This document shows, in pieces, positions 4,353 to 64,000 of a DNA stretch of 64,000 bases. The notes below the pieces were generated by a model. It had not been told where the DNA came from. It saw nothing but the letters and a program-made list of their open reading frames with translations, and ran no database searches. A program made the position numbers and the translations under genes. Every line of letters starts with the position of its first letter. Within the stretch, counting starts at the first letter, position 1. The DNA comes from Lachnospiraceae bacterium (GTDB lineage Bacteria; Bacillota; Clostridia; Lachnospirales; Lachnospiraceae): contig JAFZOW010000040.1 in NCBI GenBank assembly GCA_017552715.1, forward strand, positions 1 through 64,000, written 5' to 3'.

Positions 4353-6119
4353 ATGATCAGTAAATGGCTCAGTAACATCAGTGTCCGTGCCAAGCTCATG
4401 CTCATGACGATCCCGCTGGCTGTAGCGCTGGTGTTCGCCGTGGTCTTCATGGCGATCGAGCTTCACAGCACCGAGGAGGAAGTTTCGGGAGTTTATTACG
4501 ATACGCTCTATACCGTGAACAGTGCACTGGTGAACGGTGACCGGGATTTTTACCAGTCCATGGTGGGGGCCATGCAGTATTACGACTTTATCAACGGTTA
4601 TACCGGTGCTCCCCCTGAGTTTGCGGTGACCCAGCTGGAGGGTTGCCTGGACGATTATAATTCCAATAAGCAGCAGGTCTATGACCGGGTAAACGAGGCT
4701 GTGAATGTTGCCAGCAAGGATGAGGAGCTCTATAAAAACGTCAAATCCGCCAACGGCATGAACTATGCCGATACCAAGAGCGGTTTTGATGACGCCATGA
4801 AGGCCTGGGAAGAATCCTTTAACGTAAAGGATAATACAGGCGACTGGGAAGCCTTCCATGGCACTTTTTCCACAGCCAGGGACTATATCAATGATATGCA
4901 GGAGATCACCGAGACCTGGGCTGAGCAGGAGCATGTCGCCCTGCAGAAGCAGATCATGGCCAAGTTCCTTACCATCGCTCTTATCTTTGCGATCCTGATC
5001 GTGATCCTTACCGTGATCGTGGTGGCAACGATCCGTCAGATCCGCATCGGCTTAAAGAGCGCCACGGATAATCTGAACCAGCTGGCCAGCGGTGATCTGA
5101 ATGTTCACTTCCCGGATGATTCCGAGATCGGAACAGATGACGTGGGCACCATCACACGAAGTGCAAAACTGCTGAGCGATAAGCTCAACGAAGTAATGAG
5201 CAAGAGCAACAGTATGGCCAGAGAGCTTACTGATGCCGGTACGGATCTGGCTGATTCCGCCTCTCAGGCTTCTCAGGCCAGTGAGCAGGTGACCGATGCC
5301 GTGACCGAGATCAGCAAGGGCGCCGTGGCTCAGGCCGAGAGCGTGGAAAGTGCCGTGGGCAATACCGATGATATCGGCAACAATATCGAGAGCATCACGG
5401 GTAACGTAAGTGATATGGATCGCGTGGCCAGTGAGATGAAAGCTGCCTGTGACAAGGCGATGGAAGCCCTGGAGAAACTTATCCGCCAGAGCGAAGAAGT
5501 GACCGCTTCCGTGAAGGATATCGGCGATACCATCAATTCCACCAACGAAAGCGCCAAGTCCATTTCCGACTTTACGCAGGCGATCACGGATATCGCGACC
5601 CAGACCAATCTGCTTTCCCTGAATGCCTCCATCGAGGCTGCCCGTGCCGGTGATGCAGGCCGCGGCTTTGCCGTTGTGGCGGACGAGATACGTGCCCTGG
5701 CCGATCAGTCCAGTGAGAGCGCCGACAAGATCAAGAACATTGTTGAGAAGCTGCTTGCGGATTCCGCTTCCAGTGTGAGCGTATTAGAGAAGCTCAACGA
5801 GAGCTTCGGGGTACAGGCAGAACAGCTGGATTCCACCCGCAGCAATATGGAGATCATGAACGGCAGCGTGCTGAGCGTGAAGGAAAGTGCCGACAGCATC
5901 AGCAAACAGATCGCATCTCTGAACGATGCCAAGGAAGGTCTTACCGGTATCATCAGCGACCTCTCCGCCATCAGCGAAGAGAATGCAGCTTCCACCGAGC
6001 AGACCAATGCTTCCATGGAAGAGCTGAACGCTACCTTCACCATCATCAGTGAGAGCGCCGGTAAGCTTCAGGGCCTGGCAGCGGATCTGACCGATACCAT
6101 CAGCTATTTCAGAGTATAA
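4353..6119 (+). CDS. Methyl-accepting chemotaxis protein
   Basis: The 588-residue transmembrane chemoreceptor has TM1 at about residues 13-37, an extracytoplasmic sensor of about 165 residues, TM2 at about 203-228, a HAMP linker, and a cytoplasmic signalling domain whose tip reads [20 protein letters not shown] (from about residue 419), the site that docks CheA and CheW. The sensor has no ligand motif I can name. The ATG at 4353 has TAGGAGGA 7 bases upstream. It has its own promoter and terminator, and no other chemotaxis or flagellar gene lies in the window, so its ligand and partner kinases are encoded elsewhere. Confidence 0.93.
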
Positions 6120-6139
6120 TATCATCGACTTTTTTACCG

Positions 6140-6172
6140 CAAGGGGGCGGGACTCGCCCCCTTGTTTTTTTT
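6140..6172 (+). terminator. Rho-independent terminator after the chemotaxis receptor gene
   Basis: A 10-bp GC-rich stem (6140-6149 with 6155-6164), loop GGACT, is followed by eight T residues (6165-6172). Confidence 0.93.
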
Positions 6173-6188
6173 ATTCGGATATGAGAAA

Positions 6189-6202
6189 ATACTGTACAGT
6201 AT
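6189..6202. promoter_or_regulatory. 14-bp perfect palindrome upstream of gatA
   Basis: ATACTGTACAGTAT is perfectly self-complementary and lies 21 bases before the gatA ATG, where a repressor could cover the promoter or transcript start. No regulator is identified, and it does not resemble the Bacillus LexA box. Confidence 0.35.
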
Positions 6203-6223
6203 GGCTTATAGGGAGAAATCACA

Positions 6224-7660
6224 ATGAAACTGACGGAAATGAGTGCATGGGAGCTGGGGCAGAAGATCGCCGGCGGAGAGCTGAAGGCTACGGAGGCTCT
6301 GGATGCCTGTATGGAGCAGATCGGCGTGCGGGAAGATGAGATCCACGCCTATATCACGCTGGATGCCGAGAGGGCATATGAAAATGCCGAGGCGGTGCAG
6401 AAGCGTATCGATGCGGGAGAAAGCTTAGGTCCCCTGGCCGGTGTTCCCATGGCTGTAAAGGATAATATGTGTACCGAAGGGATGCTCACCACCTGTGCTT
6501 CCAGGATACTGGGAAATTTTGTCCCTGCCTACAGTGCGACGGCTGTGGAAAAGCTTAAGGAAGCCGGAGCCGTGATCATCGGTAAGACCAATATGGATGA
6601 GTTCGCTATGGGCTCCACCACCGAGACTTCCTACTTCGGAATCACCCGCAATCCCCGGAATACGGAGCATGTGCCCGGCGGCAGCAGCGGTGGTTCCGCA
6701 GCAGCCGTGGCGGCGGAGGAATGCATCTATGCCCTGGGTTCGGATACCGGCGGGTCCATAAGGCAGCCGGCAGGCTATTGCGGCGTGGTGGGGATAAAGC
6801 CTACCTACGGAACAGTCTCCCGTTACGGCCTGGTGGCCTACGGTTCCTCCCTGGACCAGATCGGGCCCCTGACCAAGGATGTACGGGATGCCGCAGCGGT
6901 ACTGGAGGCCATCAGCGGCTATGACGAAAAGGATTCCACCTCTCTGGACCGTAAGGATCTGCATTTCACGGAGGCCCTGCGGGAGGATGTGAAGGATCTG
7001 CGGATCGGGATCCCCTCGGATTATTTCGGGGAAGGCCTGGATGAGGAAGTGGGTGAGGCCGTACGGAAGGCGGCGGAGGAGCTGAAAGCCGCCGGGGCAA
7101 AGGTGGAAGAGTGCCGGCTGGATCTGGTGAAATATGCCATCCCTACCTACTATACCATTGCGGATGCCGAGGCCAGTTCCAATCTGGAGCGCTTCGACGG
7201 CATCAAGTACGGTTACCGTACGGAGGAATACACGGATCTCCATGATATGTATAAGAAGACCCGTTCCGAGGGCTTCGGGGCGGAGGTGAAACGGCGCATC
7301 ATGCTGGGAAGCTTTGTGCTCTCCTCCGGCTATTACGACGCCTATTATCTGAAGGCTCTGAAGGTGAAGGCTCTGATAAAGAAAGCTTTTGATGAAGCTT
7401 TTTCCAAGTATGACATCCTCCTGGGACCCGTTGCACCCACCACGGCTCCCCGGCTGGGAGAAAGCCTCTCCGATCCCATGAAGATGTATCTGGGAGATAT
7501 CTACACTGTATCGGCCAATCTGGCGGGGATCCCGGGGATCAGCCTGCCCTGCGGTGCGGATAAGGAAGGGCTGCCCATCGGTCTGCAGCTTCTGGGTGAC
7601 TGCTTCAGGGAAGATGTGCTGATACGCGCAGCGTATACTTATGAGAAAATAAGAAAATGA
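6224..7660 (+). CDS. gatA: Asp-tRNA(Asn)/Glu-tRNA(Gln) amidotransferase subunit A
   Basis: This is the 478-residue amidase subunit that releases ammonia from glutamine for transamidation of mischarged tRNA. The amidase-signature Ser-cisSer-Lys triad is intact: Lys79 in AVKDNMC, Ser154 in GGSSGGS and Ser178 in GSDTGGSIRQPAG. The C-terminal NLAGIPGISLPCG is typical of the family. It begins a transcription unit after the terminator at 6172 and continues through a small membrane protein gene to gatB. Length and motifs match bacterial GatA closely. Confidence 0.97.
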   Translation: MKLTEMSAWELGQKIAGGELKATEALDACMEQIGVREDEIHAYITLDAERAYENAEAVQKRIDAGESLGPLAGVPMAVKDNMCTEGMLTTCASRILGNFVPAYSATAVEKLKEAGAVIIGKTNMDEFAMGSTTETSYFGITRNPRNTEHVPGGSSGGSAAAVAAEECIYALGSDTGGSIRQPAGYCGVVGIKPTYGTVSRYGLVAYGSSLDQIGPLTKDVRDAAAVLEAISGYDEKDSTSLDRKDLHFTEALREDVKDLRIGIPSDYFGEGLDEEVGEAVRKAAEELKAAGAKVEECRLDLVKYAIPTYYTIADAEASSNLERFDGIKYGYRTEEYTDLHDMYKKTRSEGFGAEVKRRIMLGSFVLSSGYYDAYYLKALKVKALIKKAFDEAFSKYDILLGPVAPTTAPRLGESLSDPMKMYLGDIYTVSANLAGIPGISLPCGADKEGLPIGLQLLGDCFREDVLIRAAYTYEKIRK

Positions 7661-7698
7661 TGGCCGGGCCTGTCCGGAAGAAATGAAAGGAGAAGGAT

Positions 7699-7929
7699 AT
7701 GAAAAAGATCAACGCATTTTTTGACAGCTTTAACGATGCAAAGGTGATGAGCCGCGGGATGTGGTTCTATCAGCTGCTGGCGGCTTTCCTCGGCGGCATC
7801 ATCCTGGGGATACTCATCGCTCCGCCCAGAAAGATGAGGGTCGGCTGCAATAACGGGAACACCAGCGTTCACGACTCCGGCTGCTGTGAAGAGGACGGGG
7901 AATGTTGCTGCGGCAAAAAGGAAGATTAA
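7699..7929 (+). CDS. Small single-span membrane protein with Cys-rich tail
   Basis: A 76-residue protein of unknown function. A short amphipathic start is followed by one membrane segment (about residues 25-43, LLAAFLGGIILGILIAPP) and a C-terminal tail with six Cys, including the clusters GCCEEDGECCCGKK, which could bind a metal or form disulfides. A good ribosome binding site (AAAGGAGAAGG) precedes the ATG, so it is very probably translated. It sits between gatA and gatB, in what is normally an uninterrupted pair. Confidence 0.75.
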   Translation: MKKINAFFDSFNDAKVMSRGMWFYQLLAAFLGGIILGILIAPPRKMRVGCNNGNTSVHDSGCCEEDGECCCGKKED

Positions 7930-7957
7930 GATAGCTTAAGCAAAAAGGAGTACGATC

Positions 7958-9394
7958 ATGTCCAGAGAATACGAAACCGTCATAGGCCTGGAGGTCCATG
8001 TGGAGCTGGCAACGAAGACCAAGATCTTCTGCGGCTGTTCCACTCAGTTCGGCGGTGAAGTGAACAGTCACACCTGTCCGGTCTGTACCGGCATGCCGGG
8101 GTCGCTCCCGGTGCTCAATAAGCAGGTGGTGGAATATGCCATCGCAGTGGGCCTGGCTACCAACTGTGAGATCACGCGTCACGGGAAGTTTGACCGGAAG
8201 AATTACTTTTATCCGGATAATCCCCAGAACTATCAGATCTCCCAGCTCTATCTGCCCATCTGCCGTAACGGTTACGTGGAGATCGAAACGGAAGCCGGCG
8301 GCAGCAAAAAGGTGGGGATCCACGAGATCCATATGGAGGAGGACGCGGGCAAGCTGATCCATGATGAATGGGCCGAGGTGAGCCTGGTGGACTACAACCG
8401 CTCCGGGGTGCCGCTGATCGAGATCGTCTCCGAGCCGGATATGCGCAGTGCGGAGGAAGTCATTGCCTATCTGGAGAAGCTGCGTATGTTCATCCGTTAT
8501 CTGGGAGCTTCGGACTGCAAGCTTCAGGAGGGCAGCATGCGTGCGGATGTGAACCTTTCCGTGCGGCCCGTGGGAGCTGCGGAGTTCGGTACCCGTACCG
8601 AGATGAAGAACCTGAACTCCTTTACTTCCATCACCCATGCCATTGCCAGCGAGCGGGAGCGGCAGATCGATATACTGGAGAGCGGTGGCAGCGTTGTTCA
8701 GGAAACCCGGCGCTTTGACGATAACAAGGGCGAATCCTATGCCATGCGCAGCAAGGAGGATGCCCAGGATTACCGCTACTTCCCGGATCCGGATCTGATC
8801 CCGGTGGAGGTTTCCGAGGAGTGGATCGAAGAGATAAAAAGCCGTCAGCCGGAATTCCGTCCGGCAAAGATGGCCCGTTATAAAGAGGAATACGGTATCC
8901 CCGACTATGATATCGGCATCATCACCGACAGCAAAGCCATGGCGGATATCTTTGAAGAGGCTACAAAGCTTTCCGGCCAGCCCAAGAAGGTGAGTAACTG
9001 GCTGATGGTGGAGACCCTGCGCCTCTTAAAGGAACAGAATATGGATCCGGAGGATATACGTTTTTCCGCGAAGCATCTGGCCGATCTGATCGGGCTTACG
9101 GAAAAGCGTGTGATCAATTCTTCCGTGGCCAAGGAAGTTTTTGAAAAGATGTTTGAGGATGACACGGATCCCGTGGCCTATGTTGAGGAACACGGCTTAA
9201 AACAGGAGTCCGACGCAGGCGCCCTTAAGGCCATCTGCGAGCAGGTCATAGCCGAAAATCCGAAATCCGTAGAGGATTATAAAGCCGGCAAGGAGAAAGC
9301 CATAGGCTTCCTTGTGGGGCAGACCATGAAGCTGGCAAAGGGCAAGGCGGATCCGGGTACCGTGAACAGCCTGCTCAAAGAGCTTCTGGGTTAA
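7958..9394 (+). CDS. gatB: Asp-tRNA(Asn)/Glu-tRNA(Gln) amidotransferase subunit B
   Basis: This 478-residue subunit binds and phosphorylates the misacylated tRNA before amidation. It has the N-terminal signature YETVIGLEVHVEL, the zinc-site cysteines CGCSTQF and CPVCTGMPG, the cradle-domain motif DFNRSGVPLIEIV-like DYNRSGVPLIEIV and a C-terminal YqeY-like helical domain from about residue 330. AAAAAGGAG lies upstream of the ATG. It is the last gat gene and runs directly into addB (6-base gap). Confidence 0.97.
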   Translation: MSREYETVIGLEVHVELATKTKIFCGCSTQFGGEVNSHTCPVCTGMPGSLPVLNKQVVEYAIAVGLATNCEITRHGKFDRKNYFYPDNPQNYQISQLYLPICRNGYVEIETEAGGSKKVGIHEIHMEEDAGKLIHDEWAEVSLVDYNRSGVPLIEIVSEPDMRSAEEVIAYLEKLRMFIRYLGASDCKLQEGSMRADVNLSVRPVGAAEFGTRTEMKNLNSFTSITHAIASERERQIDILESGGSVVQETRRFDDNKGESYAMRSKEDAQDYRYFPDPDLIPVEVSEEWIEEIKSRQPEFRPAKMARYKEEYGIPDYDIGIITDSKAMADIFEEATKLSGQPKKVSNWLMVETLRLLKEQNMDPEDIRFSAKHLADLIGLTEKRVINSSVAKEVFEKMFEDDTDPVAYVEEHGLKQESDAGALKAICEQVIAENPKSVEDYKAGKEKAIGFLVGQTMKLAKGKADPGTVNSLLKELLG

Positions 9395-9400
9395 TGCCTT

Positions 9401-12400
9401 ATGTCTCTTCGTTTTGTCATCGGCGGGGCAGGGAGCGGGAAGAGCCGGAGGCTTCAGGATGAGCTGATACGGCGTTCCATGGAGCGGCCGGAGCAGCAGT
9501 TCATGATGATCGTTCCCGACCAGTTCACCATGCAGACCCAGAAGGAGATGGTGGAACGTCATCCCCGGCACGGCATCATGAACATCGATGTGCAGAGCTT
9601 TGGGAGGCTTTATTATCGTATTGCCGATGAGCTGGGGGAAGCGGAGCGCATCACCCTGGACGATACGGGGAAGAATCTGGTACTCCGCCGTCTGGCGGCC
9701 GGACTGAAGGACCGGCTGCCGGTCATAGGCTCATCTCTGGAGAAGAAGGGCTATGTCCATGAGCTGAAATCCCTGATCTCGGAATTCCTCCAATATGATA
9801 TCGGTCCGGAGGAGCTTGAGCGGCTTGCGGAATATGCCGTAGGGCGTAAGCTGCTTTCCGGGAAACTCAAAGATGTAAAAACAGTCTATGAAGCGTTCCG
9901 TTCCTATCTGGGGGAACGCTATATCACCAAGGAAGAAAAAACGGAGATACTGGCGGCGAACATCAGCCGTTCCACCCTGCTGAAAGGCAGTGTGGTGGCA
10001 TTTGATTGTTTTACCGGATTCACACCCGTGCAAAATAGTGTTATAACGCAGCTGCTGAGATGCTGCGAAGAGCTTTTGGTCAGCATTATCCTGCCTGCGG
10101 AGGAACTGGAGAGTTACCGGAGAGATGCAGATGAGCATCGTCTTTTCTCCCTGAGCATGAAGACGATACACTCCCTGGAACAGCTGGCAGCGGATGCGGG
10201 CTGTCCCCGGGGAGAGGATATACTCCTGTATGGAGAGCCCTGGCGTTTCCGGGGGCGTCCGGCCCTTGCTTTTCTGGAGAAGAATATCTTCCGGGGAGGG
10301 ACGGCGGTGTATCCGGAAGATCCGGGTACGGAGATCACTTCCTTCAGCGCAAAGGATCCTGCCGAGGAAGTGAAGGAGATCTTCCGCAGGGTTCGAAGGC
10401 TTACAAGAGAGGAAGGTCTCGCCTACCGTGACATCGCCGTGATCAGCGGGGATCCCGACCGTTATGCTCCTTATGTGGAGGAGGCTTCGGCAGCCTACGG
10501 TATCCCCTATTTCCTGGACAGCAACCGTAAGCTGGAACACAATCCCGTTACGGAATTCCTTCGCAGCACGATGGAATGCGCCGTAAAGGATTTTGCCTAT
10601 GAGCCCGTGATGCAGCTTCTTCGCAGCGGCCTTTCCGGTGTCACACAGGAGGAGGCCGACGAACTGGAGAATTATATCCTGGCTACCGGCGTGAGGGGAC
10701 GAAGAGCCTGGGAGAAGAACTTCGTGCGTATTCCCCGTTATATGCGGGGAAGCGAAGAAGACATGATGAAGATCAATGCCACCCGGGAAAAGATCATGAA
10801 GCTCTGCGGACCGCTCCTTGAGCTGGGAAAGAAGGCGGATGCCGCCGCTTATGCCGAAAGGCAGTATGCCTTTCTTTCGGAGAATGCGGTTTATGACAAG
10901 CTGCAGGCCATGGCGCTGGCCTTCCGGGACGGAGGTGATGAGACCAGGGCCAAGGAGTACGAGCAGGTATACGAATCGGTCTGCCGTCTGCTGGAACAGA
11001 TCGCGGAGCTTCTGGCCGGAGAGGAACTGGCCCTTTCCGAGTATACGGAGATCTTTCTGTCGGGTATCGAGGAGATCAAGCTGGGGGTTCTGCCCCAGGA
11101 TACGGACCGGGTGGTGATCGGGGATATGGAGCGCACCCGCTTAAAGCCGGTGAAGGTTCTTTTCTTTGCGGGCTTAAACGACGGGGTGGTGCCGGCAGCC
11201 ATCGGCAGCGGAGGCATGATCTCGGACATCGACCGGGAGTTTCTGGAAGGGTCGGGCTTTGCCCTTTCTCCAACTCCGAGACAGCGTATGTTCATCCAGC
11301 GGCTGTATCTTTATCATGCCTTAAGCCGGCCGTCGGAGAGGCTGATCCTCTCCCACAGCCTGAGTGCCGCCGGAGGGGAGAGTTTACGGGACTCCTACCT
11401 TCTTACGGTGATGAACGGGCTGTTCCCGAAGCTTTCGCAAAGCAGTGCGAAGAGGAATGCGGATGAACTGCCGGATTCCCTGAGTCTGGCCCTGATGCTT
11501 TCCGATTATGCTGCCGGCCTGCTTTCGGAGGAGGAAGTTAAGGAGCTGCTGGCGGCCTGGCGCCTGTACGGGGAAAAGTACGGCATGCGTGCGCTGAAGC
11601 TGGCGAATGCCGCCTTCTACCGCTATCTGCCGCCCCTTCTGTCGGAGGAGTCCGTCCGCACACTTTACGGTGAGGAACCCGTAGGCAGTGTGAGCCGTAT
11701 GGAACGCTTTGCTTCCTGCGCCTATGCCCATTATCTGAGTTATGGCCTTCGACTTTCCGAACGGGAGGAGAGTGGTCTGGCACCCATGGATGTGGGGACA
11801 CTCTGCCATAATGTGCTGGAGCTTTTCGGAAAGGAGCTTAAGCAAAAGGGACGTGAATGGAGTGAGGTGACGGAGGAAGAAGTGGACAGGCTGCTGCCGG
11901 AACTTACTTCACGGGTATGTGCTGAGTATGGAGCATTGTCCGGCGAAAACAGCAGGGATATGCAGCAGATGAAGCGTATGCAGCGCATACTGAAGCGCAG
12001 CGTGCAGACACTTGCACAACAGCTTCGCTGCGGCGCCTTCCGGCCGGAAAGCTTTGAGTGCAGCTTCCGGCGTAAAACGGAATTCTCTGTCGGAGACATA
12101 AAATACAGCATGCGCCTTACGGGAAAGATCGACCGCGTGGACGTGCTCCGGGAAGGGGATACCCTCTATCTGAAGGTGACGGATTACAAGACCGGTACGA
12201 AGAAAGCGGACATCACCGAGCTCTATGCGGGGAGGCAGCTGCAGCTGCCCGTTTATCTGAAGGAGGCCATGACACAGATGAAGGAAGCGCATCCGGAGCT
12301 TAAGGTGCTGCCGGCTGCTTTCTTCTATTATATCCTGAGGGATCCGCTGATGGACGGGGACGGAGCCAGTCCCGAAGAACTGCAGGCTGCGCTTGCGAAG

Positions 12401-58082: not shown

Positions 58083-58457
58083 ATGATGGCGGACCAGGAC
58101 CGGCCGGAAGCGGTATATTGTTTCCATTACCTGCTTCCCATGACCCACAGCGGTGATAACCTGCGGGAACATATGCACAGTCACACGCTGGAGATAACGA
58201 TATACATCAGCGGGGACCGGATGACCAATGAGATGTTTACGCAGAACGAGAGTTACGCCGGGGATGTGCTCCGCAGATATGAAGGGCAGTACTTTAACGA
58301 CCTGCCGGAGTTTGCGGGCAATGCCAGCATAGAGAACATCGGGGAAGTTTTCTTTTACATGCTGGATCAGACCATGAAGGCATTGGGGCTTACACTGAAG
58401 CGACTGGAGATCGGAGAGAATCCGTTACAGCAGTATGTGATATCCACATACATGTAG
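58083..58457 (+). CDS. QueD/6-pyruvoyl-tetrahydropterin synthase-like protein
   Basis: A 124-residue protein with the T-fold pattern of the PTPS/QueD family: HMHSHTLEITIYI supplies the zinc-binding His pair, and FNDLPEFAGNASIENIGEVFFYML with LKRLEIGENPLQQYV matches the C-terminal half including the conserved Glu. The catalytic Cys normally found a few residues before the HxH motif is missing (NLREHMHSH), so pterin or queuosine synthesis is doubtful. It opens the XrtG locus, where PTPS-related proteins of unknown role are typical. ATG 58086 is an alternative start. Confidence 0.8.
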   Translation: MMADQDRPEAVYCFHYLLPMTHSGDNLREHMHSHTLEITIYISGDRMTNEMFTQNESYAGDVLRRYEGQYFNDLPEFAGNASIENIGEVFFYMLDQTMKALGLTLKRLEIGENPLQQYVISTYM

Positions 58458-58472
58458 CAGGATGGTGACGGG

Positions 58473-59957
58473 ATGAAGAGGACAGAAATGATCAGAAGGA
58501 GAATACTGGCTTTCGGTGCCGCGGCAGCTTTGCTGCTGGCGGGTTTCCCTTCCTATGCCTTTGCATCGGAGGAAGATGTCGTATCGGAAAATGCGGCATT
58601 GTCCGAAAATGAAGCGGTATCGGAAAATGAAACCGTTTCGGAGGATGTTCTGCCGCCCGAAAAGGAAGAGCTGCCCGAAGAAGAGCTTCCCAAAGAAGAG
58701 CTTCCCAAAGAGGAAGAGCTTTCCGGGGAGGAAGCCGAAGAACTGACGGAAGGCGCCGGGGAAGCAGCCGTAAGCGAAGAGGAGACAGCGGAGGCGGAGC
58801 AGGAAAAGGCTACGGCCGGGGAGTCCGGGGAGTCAGCCGCCTTCGAAGGCATCTGCATAGACGGGGATTTCAAGGACTGGCGCGGTGTGCCGAAGAGTGA
58901 AGGCACGGGAAGCATACAGCTGGCAGCCGTGGTGCAGGACGAAAACTATGTGTATGTGTACCTGCGGGACGACGGAAACTGCTGCGCCGCCTGGGCAGGT
59001 CCTCATAATAACGGAAAATTCAGCTTTGTATCGGATCTTGGCTATACCAGCCTGTTCCAGCTGCATAATAATCCGGCCCGTATCAGCGGTGTGGACGGAG
59101 CTTCCGTAAGCTACCGATTCAGCTGGGGCGATGCTTACGGGGAATGGGAGATCGCCGTACCGGTGGATCACCTTCCCATCAACGGCGGAAGCTACAGCTT
59201 CGGTTTCTATCAGGGCGACCGTTTTGTGAATGACGCCGTGGATGAGCGGAACCGGAGACAGCAGCCCGATCCGGATCCCGATCCCGGACGTATCGTATAT
59301 GACGGCCTGTACGGTGACTGGACCGATTATCCCCACGAGCTGATCCATTATGCCACCGACGGCACCCAGGAACGTGTAGTGGACGGCGAGGGAGCGCTTT
59401 TTGTTGACGGCTCCACCCTTTACGGGCACTGCATCACCACCATGGCGATACAGGTGGAGCAGGGCGGTAACGATGTGCTGGAAGGCGTGGTGCTGCGCAT
59501 CAACGAGAGTACCGATTGGAAGGATCTCTTCGAATTCCGTTTTGCCACCGTGGATGCGGCCGGTAATATCGACTGGCATCCGCAGCTGGAGTATCTGCCC
59601 CTGGGCACCTATGAATACATCATCACGGATGTGAACGGCTGGGGGAACGCGAAAAACCTGGATGAACTTAAAGCGCAGGGTGTGGATAAGGATGGCTACT
59701 ACGGCCGTATCACAGTGACCGTTGCACCCACCACCACCGAATGCGAATGGTGGCTGGATCTGTCTCTTCTGGCTGCACGCATGGGCGTGGATGAGACGGA
59801 CATCAAGACCATAGAAGTAAAGTATGAGCAGATCGGTGACCGCTGGCTGAAGACCGCCGGAGCTTCCTCCGGAGCAGCAGCCGGGATCGCGCTGGGAGCG
59901 GCCATTGCTCTCGGTGCCGTGATCTCACGTAAGAAGAGCGGGGATCAGGAAGAATGA
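58473..59957 (+). CDS. Secreted protein with Firmicu-CTERM-like sorting tail, probable XrtG substrate
   Basis: A 494-residue surface protein. It has a signal peptide (about 1-32, ending SYAFA), a Glu-rich region with repeated SEN/SEE units and EELPK repeats (33-122), and two similar beta-type modules. Module 1 (about 126-265) begins GICIDGDFKDWRGVP; module 2 (about 272-460) begins RIVYDGLYGDWTDYP; they are joined by a PDPDPDP linker. The shared DG..(x)DW..P opening resembles CBM9/DOMON-like carbohydrate-binding folds. The C terminus is a tripartite tail: Gly/Ser-rich GASSGAAAG, hydrophobic IALGAAIALGAVI, basic SRKK. This resembles the Firmicu-CTERM signal recognised by XrtG. The stop overlaps the xrtG start. 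Confidence 0.85.
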   Translation: MKRTEMIRRRILAFGAAAALLLAGFPSYAFASEEDVVSENAALSENEAVSENETVSEDVLPPEKEELPEEELPKEELPKEEELSGEEAEELTEGAGEAAVSEEETAEAEQEKATAGESGESAAFEGICIDGDFKDWRGVPKSEGTGSIQLAAVVQDENYVYVYLRDDGNCCAAWAGPHNNGKFSFVSDLGYTSLFQLHNNPARISGVDGASVSYRFSWGDAYGEWEIAVPVDHLPINGGSYSFGFYQGDRFVNDAVDERNRRQQPDPDPDPGRIVYDGLYGDWTDYPHELIHYATDGTQERVVDGEGALFVDGSTLYGHCITTMAIQVEQGGNDVLEGVVLRINESTDWKDLFEFRFATVDAAGNIDWHPQLEYLPLGTYEYIITDVNGWGNAKNLDELKAQGVDKDGYYGRITVTVAPTTTECEWWLDLSLLAARMGVDETDIKTIEVKYEQIGDRWLKTAGASSGAAAGIALGAAIALGAVISRKKSGDQEE

Positions 59958-60547
59958 AGCTGATACTGGGGCTTGTAGGGGGTCTTATCTGGCTCTACGT
60001 GCTCCATGTTCTTACAAAAGCAAAGATCAATTTCTGGCGCTTCCTCTGGGGGAGCGCCGGCTTGTTTATTCTGCTGATGGTCTTTGTGCGGCCTTACGTG
60101 ACCCAGCCGCTGGCTCAGGCTGTGGCTGCCATTGCTGGCTTTTTCGGCAATGCCACGGGAACCTTTACCCCTTACTTCCGCTTTGCGACGATCTTTATCC
60201 CCACTGCCGGCGGGGCCATGACCATGCAGATCGATTTCGAATGTTCGGGGATACTGGAGATCCAGGCCTTTCTCTGCCTGCTTGCATTTTTCGAGATCTA
60301 TACCCGTCAGGAAAAGATCATGATAGGGCTGCTGGGCAGCTTTTATATCATCCTGGCCAATGCGATCCGCATCGTCATCATCTGCGAGATCATCCATCTG
60401 GGCGGGAATGAGTACTATAACGTGGCACACACCTATGTGGGGAGGATCTTCTTCTACGTTCTTTCCGTGATGCTGTATTTTTACGTGTTTACCAAACCGC
60501 AGGTAGTGAAGATGCGGGTGGGGAGTTTCAGCTATGACAATGATTGA
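59954..60547 (+). CDS. xrtG: Exosortase family protein XrtG
   Basis: A 197-residue polytopic membrane protein with about six membrane segments. The exosortase triad is visible: Cys97 in DFECSGILEIQAF, Arg139 in NAIRIVII and His159 in AHTYVGRIFF. Exosortases are membrane transpeptidase-like enzymes that cut at a C-terminal sorting tail. The short single-domain form and the neighbourhood match the Gram-positive XrtG type (TIGR03110). It overlaps its probable substrate gene by 4 bases and the glycosyltransferase gene by 14. Confidence 0.92.
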   Translation: MKLILGLVGGLIWLYVLHVLTKAKINFWRFLWGSAGLFILLMVFVRPYVTQPLAQAVAAIAGFFGNATGTFTPYFRFATIFIPTAGGAMTMQIDFECSGILEIQAFLCLLAFFEIYTRQEKIMIGLLGSFYIILANAIRIVIICEIIHLGGNEYYNVAHTYVGRIFFYVLSVMLYFYVFTKPQVVKMRVGSFSYDND

Positions 60548-61919
60548 CCGCTTTATGCATTCCTTCATATTCTGGGGAGCATGGATCATCATCCCGGTGA
60601 TCATGGAGATCATCCCCTCCTTCGGGGGCTTCTTTCTTCTGCTCTACCGCAGGTTCAAGCTGCGCAGGACCTATAAGAAACCGGCGCTTTACCCCGAGCT
60701 TTCCGTCATCATCCCGGTCTACAACTCCGAGGATACCCTGGAAGCCTGCATACGCTCGGTGGAAATGAGCACCTATCCCAGTGAACGCATCCGCATCTTT
60801 CTGGTGAACAATCACGGACGGGACAACAGTTTCCGTGTATTCGGCGAGGCGCAGAAAAGGTTCCCGAGGCTGCGCATGCAGTGGCTGGAGGCGGAGCAGG
60901 GCAAATCCCGTGCCCTGAACCTTGCGCTGTATAACAGCGAAGGAAAATACATCATCAACCTGGACAGTGACGGGGTGCTGGAACCCCATGCCCTGACCAA
61001 TCTGGTGGACAAATTTGAAGCCAATCCCGACCTGAACGTTATGACGGGAGCCATCCTTACCACACCCTCCATGATCGAGGAATACCCGGCGGGCCTTAAG
61101 AGGCTTTTGCGCAAACTGGAATTCATGGAATACGGACAGGCCTTCCTGGCGGGCCGCAGCTTTGCCTCCGAGACCAACTCCCTTTATACGCTTTCCGGAG
61201 CCTTTTCGGCTTTCCGGAAGTCGGTGATCCTGAAATCCTGGATGTACAACACCAATACCATCTGTGAAGATACACATATCACCTTCCAGATGCGCTACAT
61301 CCAGAAGGAAAAGGTGGAGATCTGCGAAAACGCCATCTTTCTGGTGGATCCCATTGAAGGTTTTAACAAACTCTATACCCAGCGGCAGCGCTGGCAGAGA
61401 GGAAGCCTGGAGGTGGCCAAGCAGTTTCTGAACGATAATGAGGATTTCGGAAAGTCCTTCACGGATGTGAACGTACATACCCTGCTCTATGACCATACCT
61501 TTGCCTTTCCCCGGCTGATCTGGTACCTGGCGCTTCTGTGCCTGCTTGCTATGAACTATTCCAGCAGGATGATCATCTTCTCCACCGCAGCCATTTTCCT
61601 GATCTATATCATCGTGGGGCTGCTCTACTTTTTATCCGTCAGTATTTTCCTGAAGGAATTTGACGATCTGGGGCATTATTACAGAAAGAACTGGTGGGTG
61701 GTGTGTCTGCTCCCGGCCTTTAACCTGATGGTCTTTTTCATACGTATGGCGGGTATCATAAACAGCATAGGGACCGACAGTGCATGGAAGACAAGGAATC
61801 TCTCGGACGAAAAGAAGGCCTTTACGGATGTGGTGAAGGAAGAATTCCGGAAACCGAAGGAGTGGCTCGGAAAACTGCGTGAGCTTGTAAATAATGAAGA
61901 AGCGGAGGGGTTGGGATGA
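60534..61919 (+). CDS. XrtG-associated family 2 glycosyltransferase
   Basis: A 461-residue membrane glycosyltransferase. An N-terminal membrane segment (about 8-38) precedes the GT2 domain with SVIIPVYNSEDTLEACI, the DxD site NLDSDG (about 141-146), acceptor-side CEDTH (about 243) and the processive-synthase motif QRQRW (about 283-287). Three to four membrane segments follow. The D, DxD, ED, QxxRW set is that of polysaccharide synthases such as hyaluronan or cellulose synthase. The gene order matches TIGR03111, the glycosyltransferase coupled to XrtG. The polymer is unknown. Confidence 0.92.
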   Translation: MTMIDRFMHSFIFWGAWIIIPVIMEIIPSFGGFFLLLYRRFKLRRTYKKPALYPELSVIIPVYNSEDTLEACIRSVEMSTYPSERIRIFLVNNHGRDNSFRVFGEAQKRFPRLRMQWLEAEQGKSRALNLALYNSEGKYIINLDSDGVLEPHALTNLVDKFEANPDLNVMTGAILTTPSMIEEYPAGLKRLLRKLEFMEYGQAFLAGRSFASETNSLYTLSGAFSAFRKSVILKSWMYNTNTICEDTHITFQMRYIQKEKVEICENAIFLVDPIEGFNKLYTQRQRWQRGSLEVAKQFLNDNEDFGKSFTDVNVHTLLYDHTFAFPRLIWYLALLCLLAMNYSSRMIIFSTAAIFLIYIIVGLLYFLSVSIFLKEFDDLGHYYRKNWWVVCLLPAFNLMVFFIRMAGIINSIGTDSAWKTRNLSDEKKAFTDVVKEEFRKPKEWLGKLRELVNNEEAEGLG

Positions 61920-63001
61920 GAGATAAAACGGCAAAACGCTTCTTTGCCCTGGCGGCATCCATAGCACTGGTGCTGGGCTGTATCATGGGGGTCATCGGCT
62001 GGATCTTCATCGAGCGTTTTGAAGAGGGCGTGCTGCAGGTGGTGGCGGATCAGCAGGATGCCTATGTGCAGCTGGTGCTGGACCAGATCAACTTAAAAGA
62101 GAACCGGGACGACGAGGATATCATCACGGGGATCCTGGCATCCCTGGATTCTTCCACCAATAAATACTGGACATTCTCCCGGGGAGAGGCCATGCTCTTT
62201 GTAAAGGATGTACTGGAGACCAACAAGTATAAAGGTTTTACCACAGCAACCTATTATGTGTCCGACAGCGCAAGAGAGTTCCTGGATTCCCTGCGCTTAA
62301 ACCGCGTGAGCCATTCCAACATACGCATCGAAGACAAGGAGTTTGTGGCCAGCGGTGTGACCTTCCTTTATAACGATGCGGAATACCGTCTGTGCCTGCT
62401 CACCAACCGGGAAGTGATCCTGGATAACAACGATTTTCTGAAGGCCAAGGTGAACGTGGGGATCACCTTCCTGCTGGCCCTCTTCCTCATGGTGGTGGGG
62501 ACCATGTGGTTTGCAAGACGCCTGGGCATCTATCACCAGCGTCTGGAAGAGCGGGAAAACACCATAGCGGAGCTTACACGCAATGTATCCAATCTGAATA
62601 CGAAGCTGCTGGTGCGGACCACCTATGATACCAAGCGCACCCTCTTCCAGGAGAGCATGATACGGGATTTCCTGCAGCGTATACAAGCCAAGGGCATCCA
62701 TCCCGTTACCATGGCGGTGATCAAATGTACCCATGAGCGCAGTTTCCTGGATAAATCCCAGATCCTGCTGGATAGGGGCGTGCTCCGTTTCCAGCTGGAA
62801 GGGACCGCAGAGCTTCTGGACGGGGCGGATGTGCCCGGAAAGGTTCTGCTTGTCTTTATCCGCTGCGATCATGACAATGCGATGCTGAGCCTGAACTTTT
62901 TAATGAACATACAGACACAGATCCTGGGAGTGGACCAGTGGAACGGCCAGGGAGATATCCTGACCTTCTCCGAGCAGCTGCTTTCCAGGACGAGACAATA
63001 G
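61916..63001 (+). CDS. Uncharacterised two-TM protein of the XrtG locus
   Basis: A 361-residue protein I cannot assign to a family. TM1 lies at about 11-33 and TM2 at about 182-204, leaving an extracytoplasmic region of about 145 residues. After TM2 comes a predicted coiled coil (YHQRLEERENTIAELTRNVSNLNTK) and a cytoplasmic domain of about 130 residues. The layout is like a membrane sensor or a scaffold. The gene overlaps the glycosyltransferase by 4 bases and precedes a PTPS-like gene, so it belongs to the operon and may regulate polymer synthesis. Confidence 0.75.
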   Translation: MRDKTAKRFFALAASIALVLGCIMGVIGWIFIERFEEGVLQVVADQQDAYVQLVLDQINLKENRDDEDIITGILASLDSSTNKYWTFSRGEAMLFVKDVLETNKYKGFTTATYYVSDSAREFLDSLRLNRVSHSNIRIEDKEFVASGVTFLYNDAEYRLCLLTNREVILDNNDFLKAKVNVGITFLLALFLMVVGTMWFARRLGIYHQRLEERENTIAELTRNVSNLNTKLLVRTTYDTKRTLFQESMIRDFLQRIQAKGIHPVTMAVIKCTHERSFLDKSQILLDRGVLRFQLEGTAELLDGADVPGKVLLVFIRCDHDNAMLSLNFLMNIQTQILGVDQWNGQGDILTFSEQLLSRTRQ

Positions 63002-63011
63002 AGGATAAGAG

Positions 63012-63506
63012 ATGAGCGATATCGGTGAACAGCTGGAAAACAGGCTATTCCGGGAATACCGGCTGAAATTCTACTTAAACGGCAATCATTATGTGATCAT
63101 CGGGAACCGCAAGGGAGAGACCCATCCCCACACCTGGGAATTTACCATCAACATCCTGGTGGGACGGGAGAGTTTTGTGGAATTCCGTTATTTCGAAAAA
63201 GGTGTGGAGGCACTGCTGGCTCCCTATCAGAACCGGGTGCTCAACGAGGTGGATCCCTTTAACGGCGTGGTGCCTTCCCTGGAGAACATGGTGGAGTTTT
63301 TCGGACGAAAGATACAGGATATCGTAAAGAGCGTGGGTGGCCGTCTGCTTTCCATAGAGGGCAGTGAGACTCCGACCCGCAGTTATATCATAAATATGAA
63401 CGATGCCTTCAACAGCTATGAGCTGGAGGCTTATACGAAACAGGTAAAAGACGAAGTGATCGACACGGTGCTGGACGATCTGATGGATTCGACGGAAGGA
63501 GTCTGA
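63012..63506 (+). CDS. 6-pyruvoyl-tetrahydropterin synthase-related protein
   Basis: A 164-residue T-fold protein, second PTPS-like gene of the locus. HPHTWEFTINI provides a His pair like the zinc site of QueD, and VVPSLENMVEFFGRKI and SIEGSETPTRSYII match the remaining conserved blocks. The catalytic Cys before the His motif is absent (IIGNRKGETHPH). About 30 residues are added at the C terminus. It probably corresponds to the XrtG-associated PTPS-related family. GAGGATAAGAG lies before the ATG. Confidence 0.82.
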   Translation: MSDIGEQLENRLFREYRLKFYLNGNHYVIIGNRKGETHPHTWEFTINILVGRESFVEFRYFEKGVEALLAPYQNRVLNEVDPFNGVVPSLENMVEFFGRKIQDIVKSVGGRLLSIEGSETPTRSYIINMNDAFNSYELEAYTKQVKDEVIDTVLDDLMDSTEGV

Positions 63507-63508
63507 AC

Positions 63509-64000
63509 TTGGAGGACAGAAAAAAACTGCCGGTCTTTCTCATCTCGATCCCCGTCTACCTGGTGCTGGCTGTAGTTACGGTACTGCTGATCAAAAACAG
63601 CGGGATATATCCGGCCGGTGCGGATACCATGTGCCATGTTTATAAAGGGGATGTACTCTATGAGGCGCTGGGCCGGGGGGAATTATATCCTCTTTACGAT
63701 CCCCTCTGGTATAACGGAGTGGAGATGCTGCGTTACTGGGCACCCTTTCCGGTATATGTACTGGCCTTTTGCCAGCTGCTGGGTGGCGGGGATCCCATAC
63801 AGGGCTACCTTATCTTTGTGGGAGCGGTCTTCTTTTTCGGAGCCGTAGTTTTTTCCTGGCTGGGGCTTCAGATGAGACGGCCTTTCATAGGGGCATTTTT
63901 CGGGATACTCTGGTTCTTTCTCCCCAATAATGTTTATGCGCTTTTCAGGGAAGGAAATCTTCCCCGTTCCCTCAGCATGATCTTTCTGCCGCTTTTTCTC
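63509..64000 (+). CDS. PTPS-related polytopic membrane protein (partial)
   Basis: The frame opens with TTG at 63509 (GGAAGGA 8 bases upstream, 2 bases after the previous stop) and stays open to the window end, giving 164 residues with the C terminus missing. One membrane segment is near residues 10-28, then an extracellular loop GADTMCHVYKGDVLYEAL, LYPLYDPLWYNGVEMLRYWAP, and further membrane segments. The pattern (acidic/His loop, then a Tyr/Trp/Pro-rich stretch) resembles the PTPS-related membrane family (PF10131) and the first loop of GT-C glycosyltransferases, so it may transfer a lipid-linked sugar. Identity is probable, activity inferred. Confidence 0.75.
   Translation, partial: MEDRKKLPVFLISIPVYLVLAVVTVLLIKNSGIYPAGADTMCHVYKGDVLYEALGRGELYPLYDPLWYNGVEMLRYWAPFPVYVLAFCQLLGGGDPIQGYLIFVGAVFFFGAVVFSWLGLQMRRPFIGAFFGILWFFLPNNVYALFREGNLPRSLSMIFLPLFL

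Follow-up and report, generated by a model that had tools for sequence, protein, structure and literature searches.

The window, the whole stretch of 64,000 nucleotides analyzed here, ends in an XrtG exosortase operon of seven genes on the + strand at 58083-64000 (Table 1). The contig runs to 97,483 bases, and following it to the right, as the original prediction had advised, carries the last gene beyond the window to contig base 65956. The genes lie where they had been placed, most of them overlapping or nearly touching, with overlaps of at most 14 bases and gaps of at most 15. Six of the seven exceed a curated family cut-off, and the searches against TIGR03110, TIGR03111, TIGR04145 and PF10131 all gave scores above cut-off, which bears out the earlier claim of a complete XrtG locus. 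The same gene content and order were found again in most of 80 named loci, so the arrangement is not due to chance, and the window locus is an ordinary member of an already known kind. A GH3 gene lies upstream of the operon, a feature common to 8 of the 80 loci. In the literature searched, nothing has been demonstrated about the product of XrtG loci, in agreement with the earlier statement that these systems have no demonstrated biochemical role. The gene set probably makes a sugar polymer at the cell surface, and comparison with relatives whose proteins are joined suggests how it may work.

Table 1. Genes and features of the XrtG operon, in window positions
Feature	Position	Strand	Basis
PTPS1, 6-pyruvoyl tetrahydropterin synthase-related, 124 aa	58083..58457	+	TIGR03112 71.6 bits (cut-off 69.35); PF01242 39.2 bits
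Firmicu-CTERM substrate, 494 aa	58473..59957	+	TIGR04145 93.9 bits (cut-off 50); structure model
Substrate first domain, residues 124-260, CBM9-like by fold (borderline)	58842..59252	+	
Substrate sorting tail, residues 462-494: AGASSG, hydrophobic helix, basic end	59856..59954	+	conserved columns
XrtG exosortase, 197 aa	59954..60547	+	TIGR03110 183.9 bits (cut-off 102.75)
XrtG Cys97 codon	60242..60244	+	invariant, 13 rows; Asn or Ser in 10 fused relatives
XrtG Arg139 codon	60368..60370	+	invariant, 13 rows
XrtG His159 codon	60428..60430	+	invariant, 13 rows
Processive-type GT2, 461 aa	60534..61919	+	TIGR03111 597.5 bits (cut-off 363.95); DSDG, QRQRW
Two-TM predicted sensor, 361 aa	61916..63001	+	no family match; structure model
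Sensor Cache-type outside domain, ~residues 30-170	62003..62425	+	predicted fold
Sensor GGDEF-fold inside domain, ~residues 235-361, without GGDEF motif	62618..62998	+	predicted fold
PTPS2, second PTPS-related protein, 164 aa	63012..63506	+	TIGR03112 119.8 bits (cut-off 69.35)
PF10131 membrane protein, 815 aa	63509..64000, on to contig base 65956	+	PF10131 67.7 bits for the first 164 residues, the part inside the window (gathering cut-off 26.4)

The glycosyltransferase is of the processive type, as had been claimed, with DSDG at 144 and QRQRW at 283, and DSDG and QxxRW occur in all 80 GT2 rows (the window and 79 related). A phosphoglycerol-transferase-like domain is fused to the GT2 in 10 of the 79 relatives, which predicts polymer chemistry in some lineages. 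The C-terminal half of the three fusions tested resembles phosphoglycerol transferase I of the OpgB/MdoB type (NF009027, 157-162 bits), although these scores are far under the equivalog cut-off of 572 and the window GT2 carries no such half.

The Firmicu-CTERM substrate is built of a signal, a disordered acidic stretch, two DGxxxDW domains and a sorting tail. It scores 93.9 bits against the TIGR04145 cut-off of 50, has the three-part tail and adjoins the xrtG gene; AGxS[ST]G is present in the tails of 65 of 79 substrates. One XrtG, one TIGR04145 gene (two stretches of a single frame) and one tail-only profile match were found in its own genome, so that the prediction of a single dedicated substrate stands at that sensitivity. 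The AF2 structure model used an alignment of 53 redundancy-filtered rows, comprising the window and 52 of the 76 substrates of 400-900 aa at the 80 loci; the filter had left 54, and L066 and L110 were excluded. The top three structural matches of the first domain were CBM9 carbohydrate-binding modules, a borderline result. CBM9 is absent among the 23 Pfam families listed for the 53 members at E 0.1, and the substrate profile returned chance-level rows only against solved-structure sequences. When TIGR04145 was run on 12 distant genomes, 6 had matches at E 1, none of them above cut-off. As a separate observation, one further weak match in a different frame appears in each of G158, G277 and G570 (frames of 740-766 aa) and in G451 (452 aa), and the B. 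subtilis and L. lactis control genomes also have matches below cut-off.

The two-TM protein downstream of the GT2 is present as the original prediction had placed it and is left unnamed by the family libraries used, with no NCBIfam or Pfam family above cut-off. Fold comparison matched Cache and GGDEF folds, and we predict an outside Cache sensor coupled to a GGDEF-fold domain on the inside that lacks the GGDEF motif, a sensor role that the first reading had missed. The AF2 model was built from 50 redundancy-filtered rows, the window and 49 of the 71 homologs of 330-400 aa at the 80 loci. At the sequence level, PF00990 does not match the window protein and is absent among the best 25 of the 57 families listed for the 50 members, and the sensor profile gave chance-level rows only against solved-structure sequences. 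The RxxD I-site is not conserved, with RxxD occurring anywhere in the segment in 11 of 50 rows. At one related locus (L018), the protein in the same slot does match PF00990 above cut-off (24.1 versus 23.8 bits).

A further pointer to cyclic-di-GMP comes from the Lactococcus lactis plasmid pBV60. There, CTERM-XrtG-GT2-PTPS-TIGR03766 is immediately preceded, on the same strand, by genes for a PAS-GGDEF cyclase (130 bits) and for an EAL protein (61 bits). GGDEF matches were found in 9 of 14 control genomes, but not in that of L. lactis. Cyclase genes beside the 80 loci were rejected as evidence for such a link: we counted 13 frames in 1.405 Mb, fewer than the ~22 expected from the window's own genome, in which 55 of 60 GGDEF matches are above cut-off, some of them two pieces of a single frame. 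A same-strand cyclase gene within 261 bases, present at 4 of the 80 loci (L060, L097, L106 and L109), was likewise not counted. No c-di-GMP riboswitch was found in the window or in the 7 related loci searched.

If the two PTPS-related proteins are pterin enzymes, a pterin-like compound would be the actual product of the cluster or a cofactor. Both score above the TIGR03112 cut-off, and three zinc-type His, which we take to be zinc ligands, are retained throughout the two sets (42 of 42 rows in one, 72 of 72 in the other). However, the catalytic Cys that a true PTPS/QueD enzyme presumably has is absent from both sets, in which none of the columns conserved at 80% is a Cys, and the two proteins reach only 19.2 and 18.2 bits with the QueD model TIGR03367, against a cut-off of 89.25. 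The domains are also found fused to membrane proteins, to PF10131 in 15 frames and to the sensor in one genome. Pterin synthesis therefore seems very improbable to us, and PTPS2 would more likely be a ligand binder than a pterin maker. Against solved structures, the single PTPS2 sequence returned one unrelated row.

Twelve of the PTPS-PF10131 frames consist of these two parts, and 3 (L124, L130 and L131) carry in addition a C-terminal substrate domain; in L132, read by eye, a substrate domain ends the PF10131 frame. Five further combinations of PF10131 with a substrate domain (L043, L050, L054, L097 and L102) were matched by regular expression only and are treated as chance, because these loci have separate substrate genes. 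The substrate-bearing frames in L124, L130, L131 and L132 favor a lipid-linked route, in which the GT2 or a helper glycosyltransferase would make a polyprenyl-phosphate sugar or glycan, the polytopic PF10131 protein, presumably a transferase, would pass it to the substrate or polymer, and XrtG with the substrate would form the acceptor site. The L018 cluster also fits this route, since it contains a second GT2 that resembles polyprenyl-phosphate sugar synthases (73.9 bits with NF058614, whose cut-off of 370 it does not reach) and, after it, a small membrane protein. We nonetheless consider the route improbable, given the processive motifs of the window GT2 and the failure of a 16-row PF10131 profile to match any solved structure and hence to name a transferase.

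An alignment of the window XrtG with 12 relatives (13 rows) shows no variation at the three residues named in the original prediction, Cys97, Arg139 and His159. For the Cys alone, we counted 103 rows, made up of the window, one XrtG for each of the 80 loci and 22 distant loci; 44 of the 103 entered the XrtG tree. The Cys is retained in 93 of 93 unfused XrtGs, 92 of them distinct because L123 and L110 are, judged by length, one and the same contig, and is gone in 10 of 10 XrtGs that are fused to a substrate domain. L168 and L169 belong to one genome. L133, where a single frame encodes XrtG together with a shortened GT2 and ECSG is present, and L134, with no profile match, were left out of the count. 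L164, L166 and L172 fell outside the narrow motif expression and were read separately; the His of L172 is unreadable at a contig end.

The 10 fused loci form one distant clade, in which the substrate domain is joined to XrtG and the sorting tail is missing in every case. The N-terminal part of the L126 fusion matches a free substrate at 36% over 207 columns (E 9e-44); the alignment ends at residue 201, just ahead of the free protein's TM tail, and the XrtG alignment starts at residue 212. TIGR03110 gave 105.2 and 103.1 bits for two of three fused proteins, above the cut-off of 102.75, and 100.6 for L171, below it. With TIGR04145, L126 and L129 reached 15.9 and 15.4 bits, and L171 had no match at E 1. 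Four of the fused proteins, compared mutually, are under purifying selection, with dN/dS of 0.04-0.14 in the four of six pairs whose dS is unsaturated.

These observations bear on what the exosortase does. In classic sorting, XrtG would work in the manner of sortases and of the proposal for EpsH: as a cysteine protease or transpeptidase, it would cleave the tail and transfer the substrate covalently to an acceptor, be it a lipid, a glycan or the wall. The glycan genes would be its partners in time and place only. The invariant Cys, Arg and His, the retention of the Cys in every unfused XrtG and the three-part tail all speak for this explanation, which also has a precedent in the sortase-like model for EpsH (PMC1569441); the lipid anchoring of archaeosortase substrates is the subject of PMC7157517. 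The fused clade does not fit classic sorting, having lost tail and Cys in a protein that is still constrained, and none of the operon's genes was recognized as acceptor-related. We judge it unlikely overall, although tail cleavage by XrtG is plausible in this window, whose XrtG has kept the Cys. The cleavage of the original prediction is therefore plausible here, whereas the fused clade argues against a general need for it. A similar division applies to the idea that the cut protein is attached to, or organizes, a glycan: the borderline CBM9-like fold and the GT2 fusions support a protein that works with a glycan, and covalent attachment found no support.

On a bolder reading, which we hold to be less likely than not, XrtG systems are c-di-GMP-linked polysaccharide synthases and the lasting job of the exosortase is structural, namely to fix a domain of sugar-binding-like character next to the synthase. 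Where the proteins are separate, the Cys would strip the substrate of its own anchor and so allow docking; where they are fused, the product would be hard-wired, and selection would maintain the remainder of the exosortase fold after the loss of tail and Cys. If this is true, the non-proteolytic role of XrtG as an exosortase would be a conserved one.

For the operon as a whole, we see about even chances that it encodes a signal-controlled, synthase-dependent machine for a cell-surface polysaccharide, in which the substrate would be a membrane-held subunit. Judging from its motifs, the GT2 would polymerize and extrude the glycan. The two-TM protein would sense an outside signal through its Cache domain and relay this, or a cytoplasmic signal of the c-di-GMP type, to the GT2 through its motif-less GGDEF-fold domain, as its predicted fold and the neighboring genes in a relative suggest and by analogy with PelD for Pel. 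On the cytoplasmic side, PTPS2 may be a module of this membrane complex, to which natural fusions tie it through PF10131 and the sensor. At the outer face, the Firmicu-CTERM protein would be a sugar-binding-like subunit, its tail recognized and, in this window, probably cut by XrtG. Its domain would then stay at the membrane beside the synthase rather than be released to the medium, because one clade joins the tail-less domain straight to a Cys-less XrtG.

XrtG loci are present in many gut Clostridia, and our comparisons yield named test subjects: the Lactococcus plasmid with its own cyclase, the natural Cys-less fusion, the GT2s fused to a phosphoglycerol-transferase-like domain and the unnamed sensor. 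New in this work are the Cache/GGDEF-fold sensor prediction, the cyclase and EAL genes of the L. lactis plasmid, the borderline CBM9-like fold, the GT2 fusions and the Cys-less substrate-XrtG fusions. One protein query found no viral relatives in viral_contigs. XrtG transcripts are described as raised in L. plantarum strains (PMC12854382).

Several known systems resemble the window locus in part. In the gts operon of Lactobacillus acidophilus (GtsA, GtsB and PdeB), a BcsA/PgaC-like GT2 lies beside a two-TM protein without a known domain and a c-di-GMP receptor, and expression of the operon in E. coli raised exopolysaccharide (PMC6123363). That receptor, however, is a degenerate EAL protein, and neither "exosortase" nor "pyruvoyl" occurs in the text of PMC6123363 on this operon. 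In the Gram-positive form of Pel, that of Bacillus cereus, the polysaccharide synthase likewise has beside it a membrane protein, PelD, whose GGDEF fold lacks the cyclase motif, and there, too, the GGDEF domain was connected by structure prediction only, according to the accounts of PelD in PMC7112168 and PMC8461298. PelD of B. cereus has retained RxxD and is a c-di-GMP binder, whereas the window protein has not retained RxxD and carries a Cache domain on the outside. A close likeness is also found on a plasmid of [Eubacterium] eligens ATCC 27750 with an NCBI-annotated XrtG/Firmicu-CTERM system (TIGR03110, TIGR03111, TIGR03112 and TIGR04145), which has the same genes in matching order from the substrate onward; the protein that it, too, has between GT2 and PTPS is unnamed. 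No PTPS is annotated before its substrate, where the window has PTPS1, and the two XrtG proteins are 57% identical.

The seven-gene XrtG locus of the original prediction is confirmed: each reading frame was checked, and the family scores lie above curated cut-offs for the two PTPS-related proteins (TIGR03112; 71.6 and 119.8 bits, cut-off 69.35), the substrate (TIGR04145; 93.9 bits, cut-off 50), XrtG (TIGR03110; 183.9 bits, cut-off 102.75) and GT2 (TIGR03111; 597.5 bits, cut-off 363.95), with the PF10131 protein scoring 67.7 bits on its in-window portion (cut-off 26.4). The two-TM protein between GT2 and PTPS2 matched no family above cut-off in curated-family and Pfam profile searches. At 97,483 bases the contig reaches past the window, so the last gene, which the window cuts at 64000, could be read whole (815 aa). 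Across 13 aligned rows, from the window and 12 relatives, XrtG shows no change at Cys97, Arg139 or His159. At the sensitivity of profile searches the single dedicated substrate also stands: in the window's own genome they found one XrtG and one TIGR04145 gene, and a tail-only profile (18 rows) fits one place there.

Positions of features in the window's contig and in related loci (L-numbers)
Feature	Record	Positions	Strand
XrtG operon, seven genes overlapping or almost touching, to the end of the last gene	JAFZOW010000040.1	58083-65956	+
GH3 gene, upstream of the operon	JAFZOW010000040.1	55681-57924	
AraC-type regulator, upstream of the operon	JAFZOW010000040.1	54725-55657	
Frame with long Pro-Thr-rich end	JAFZOW010000040.1	53307-54710	
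Putative sortase-like frame, by reading, overlapping the previous one; contains TLSTC, which we take to be a sortase motif	JAFZOW010000040.1	52420-53310	
TPP riboswitch, 62.2 bits	JAFZOW010000040.1	18651-18740	-
Diguanylate cyclase, EAL gene and XrtG operon in one block	L173, NZ_CP110851.1 (pBV60)	4413-10691	
PTPS, 216 aa protein, XrtG (ECSG), GT2	L174, NZ_CP116888.1 (Aneurinibacillus plasmid)	6478-9849	
Membrane sensor fused to a PTPS domain, which replaces the GGDEF-like part	L110	11905-13002	
XrtG and shortened GT2 in one frame, 482 aa	L133	8085-9533	
Substrate domain fused to Cys-less XrtG	L125, L126, L128, L129, L164, L168-L172		
GT2-phosphoglycerol-transferase-like fusions	L043, L046, L047, L048, L052, L058, L063, L104, L105, L107		

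In a search of relatives, XrtG was carried by 14 of 144 genomes (the window's own, 11 others of the genus, one other of the family and one of the order), and in a phylum-wide draw of 398 genomes 13 match XrtG at E 0.001, nine of them above cut-off with the own genome counted. A genome_contigs scan confirmed 93 stretches; the best 80 of these 93 loci were retained and belong, by record title, mainly to Lachnospiraceae and other Clostridia. Most of the 80 that are not cut by contig ends share the order substrate, XrtG, GT2, two-TM protein, PTPS2, PF10131, although one subgroup places PF10131 between substrate and XrtG; a two-TM homolog of 330-400 aa is present in 71. Since this gene set and order recur among relatives, the window's locus is in itself of a known, ordinary type, and its interest lies in what comparisons with relatives render testable. 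The GH3 gene adjoins the operon in 8 of the 80 loci, every one among the nearest. The L133 frame, with a separate substrate-tail frame upstream, reflects either decay of the locus or a faulty assembly.

A distant class and two neighbours have XrtG as a protein of about 400 aa that begins with the substrate domain, which takes up the first 200 residues. The N-terminal part of the L126 protein aligns with L127's free substrate at 36% over 207 columns (E 9e-44) up to residue 201, right ahead of the free protein's TM tail, and XrtG homology runs from residue 212 on; the sorting tail is thus gone, and the substrate domain runs into the first helix of XrtG. TIGR04145 agrees weakly with two of three fused proteins tested (15.9 and 15.4 bits, below cut-off; profile positions 2-138 of 191). 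The catalytic Cys is replaced in all 10 fused loci, from nine genomes (Asn in nine, Ser in one), and is present in 93 of 93 unfused XrtG rows; the fused XrtGs retain Arg in 10 of 10 and His in all nine that are readable. As these 10 form one clade (support 93/81), Cys loss and fusion are treated as a single event. Comparisons among four fused proteins (dN/dS 0.04-0.14) place both halves under purifying selection, so the Cys-less protein must have some role. The fused genomes hold no other XrtG match at E 0.001, and one (G560) carries two fused copies.

Fusions also involve other members of the locus. Four further genomes (L124, L130, L131, L132) have the substrate domain at the PF10131 C-terminus, and their XrtG retains its Cys; since a signal-peptide-like stretch is seen ahead of the domain in two of them, L124 and L132, its release may still be possible in these. 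PTPS-PF10131 fusions total 15 frames. DSDG and QxxRW, motifs of processive synthases, occur in 80 of 80 GT2 rows (the window and 79 related). The C-terminal half of GT2 is phosphoglycerol-transferase-like in 10 of the 79 (nine complete; L048 is cut by a contig end). Two of these were run against PF00884 and scored 71 and 59 bits; three were run against NF009027 and scored 157-162 bits, below the cut-off of 572. Solved relatives of one tested fusion include lipoteichoic acid synthases. This half predicts a glycan bearing glycerol-phosphate in those lineages. The window's GT2 is without it, and the three PF00884 matches of the own genome are all on other contigs.

The strongest evidence for a c-di-GMP link is outside the window, on the Lactococcus lactis plasmid pBV60, which is typed as conjugative. 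There a PAS-GGDEF cyclase (PF00990, 130 bits, with RYGGDEF) and an EAL protein (61 bits) immediately precede, on the same strand, substrate, XrtG (retaining ECSG), GT2, PTPS and a TIGR03766 glycosyltransferase. It seems that pBV60 supplies the signal itself, because the L. lactis control genome has no GGDEF match, unlike 9 of the 14 control genomes. This evidence comes from a single plasmid, and XrtG was found in 4 of 72,556 plasmid records. The window's own genome has 55 GGDEF matches above cut-off. Two results speak against a c-di-GMP link: the 80 loci show no enrichment of cyclase genes next to them, and no c-di-GMP riboswitch was found in the window. On the Aneurinibacillus plasmid, the 216 aa protein has a hydrophobic, basic-ended tail but neither DGxxxDW nor any Pfam match.

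The computed results cover gene content, membership of families, predicted folds, fusions, loss of the Cys and selection; beyond these, we infer a model in which substrate, XrtG, PF10131, PTPS and the two-TM sensor would act with GT2 as members of one membrane complex, synthesizing a polymer under signal control and with sugar binding. The window's XrtG would cleave the substrate tail, and the substrate would end up held at the membrane. The original interpretation, a substrate cut at its tail and attached to or organising the GT2 glycan, is partly supported.

One study places the XrtG cluster among transcripts over-expressed in interferon-response-inducing L. plantarum strains (PMC12854382). 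Nothing further on XrtG function was found in the exosortase papers searched, which did not include the 2012 exosortase/archaeosortase survey (doi 10.1128/JB.06026-11). In [Eubacterium] eligens, a 627 kb plasmid (L175, NC_012780.1) carries the XrtG operon, immediately upstream of a toxin-antitoxin pair. This species is annotated with the gene set common to the related loci, the two-TM protein being listed there as hypothetical.
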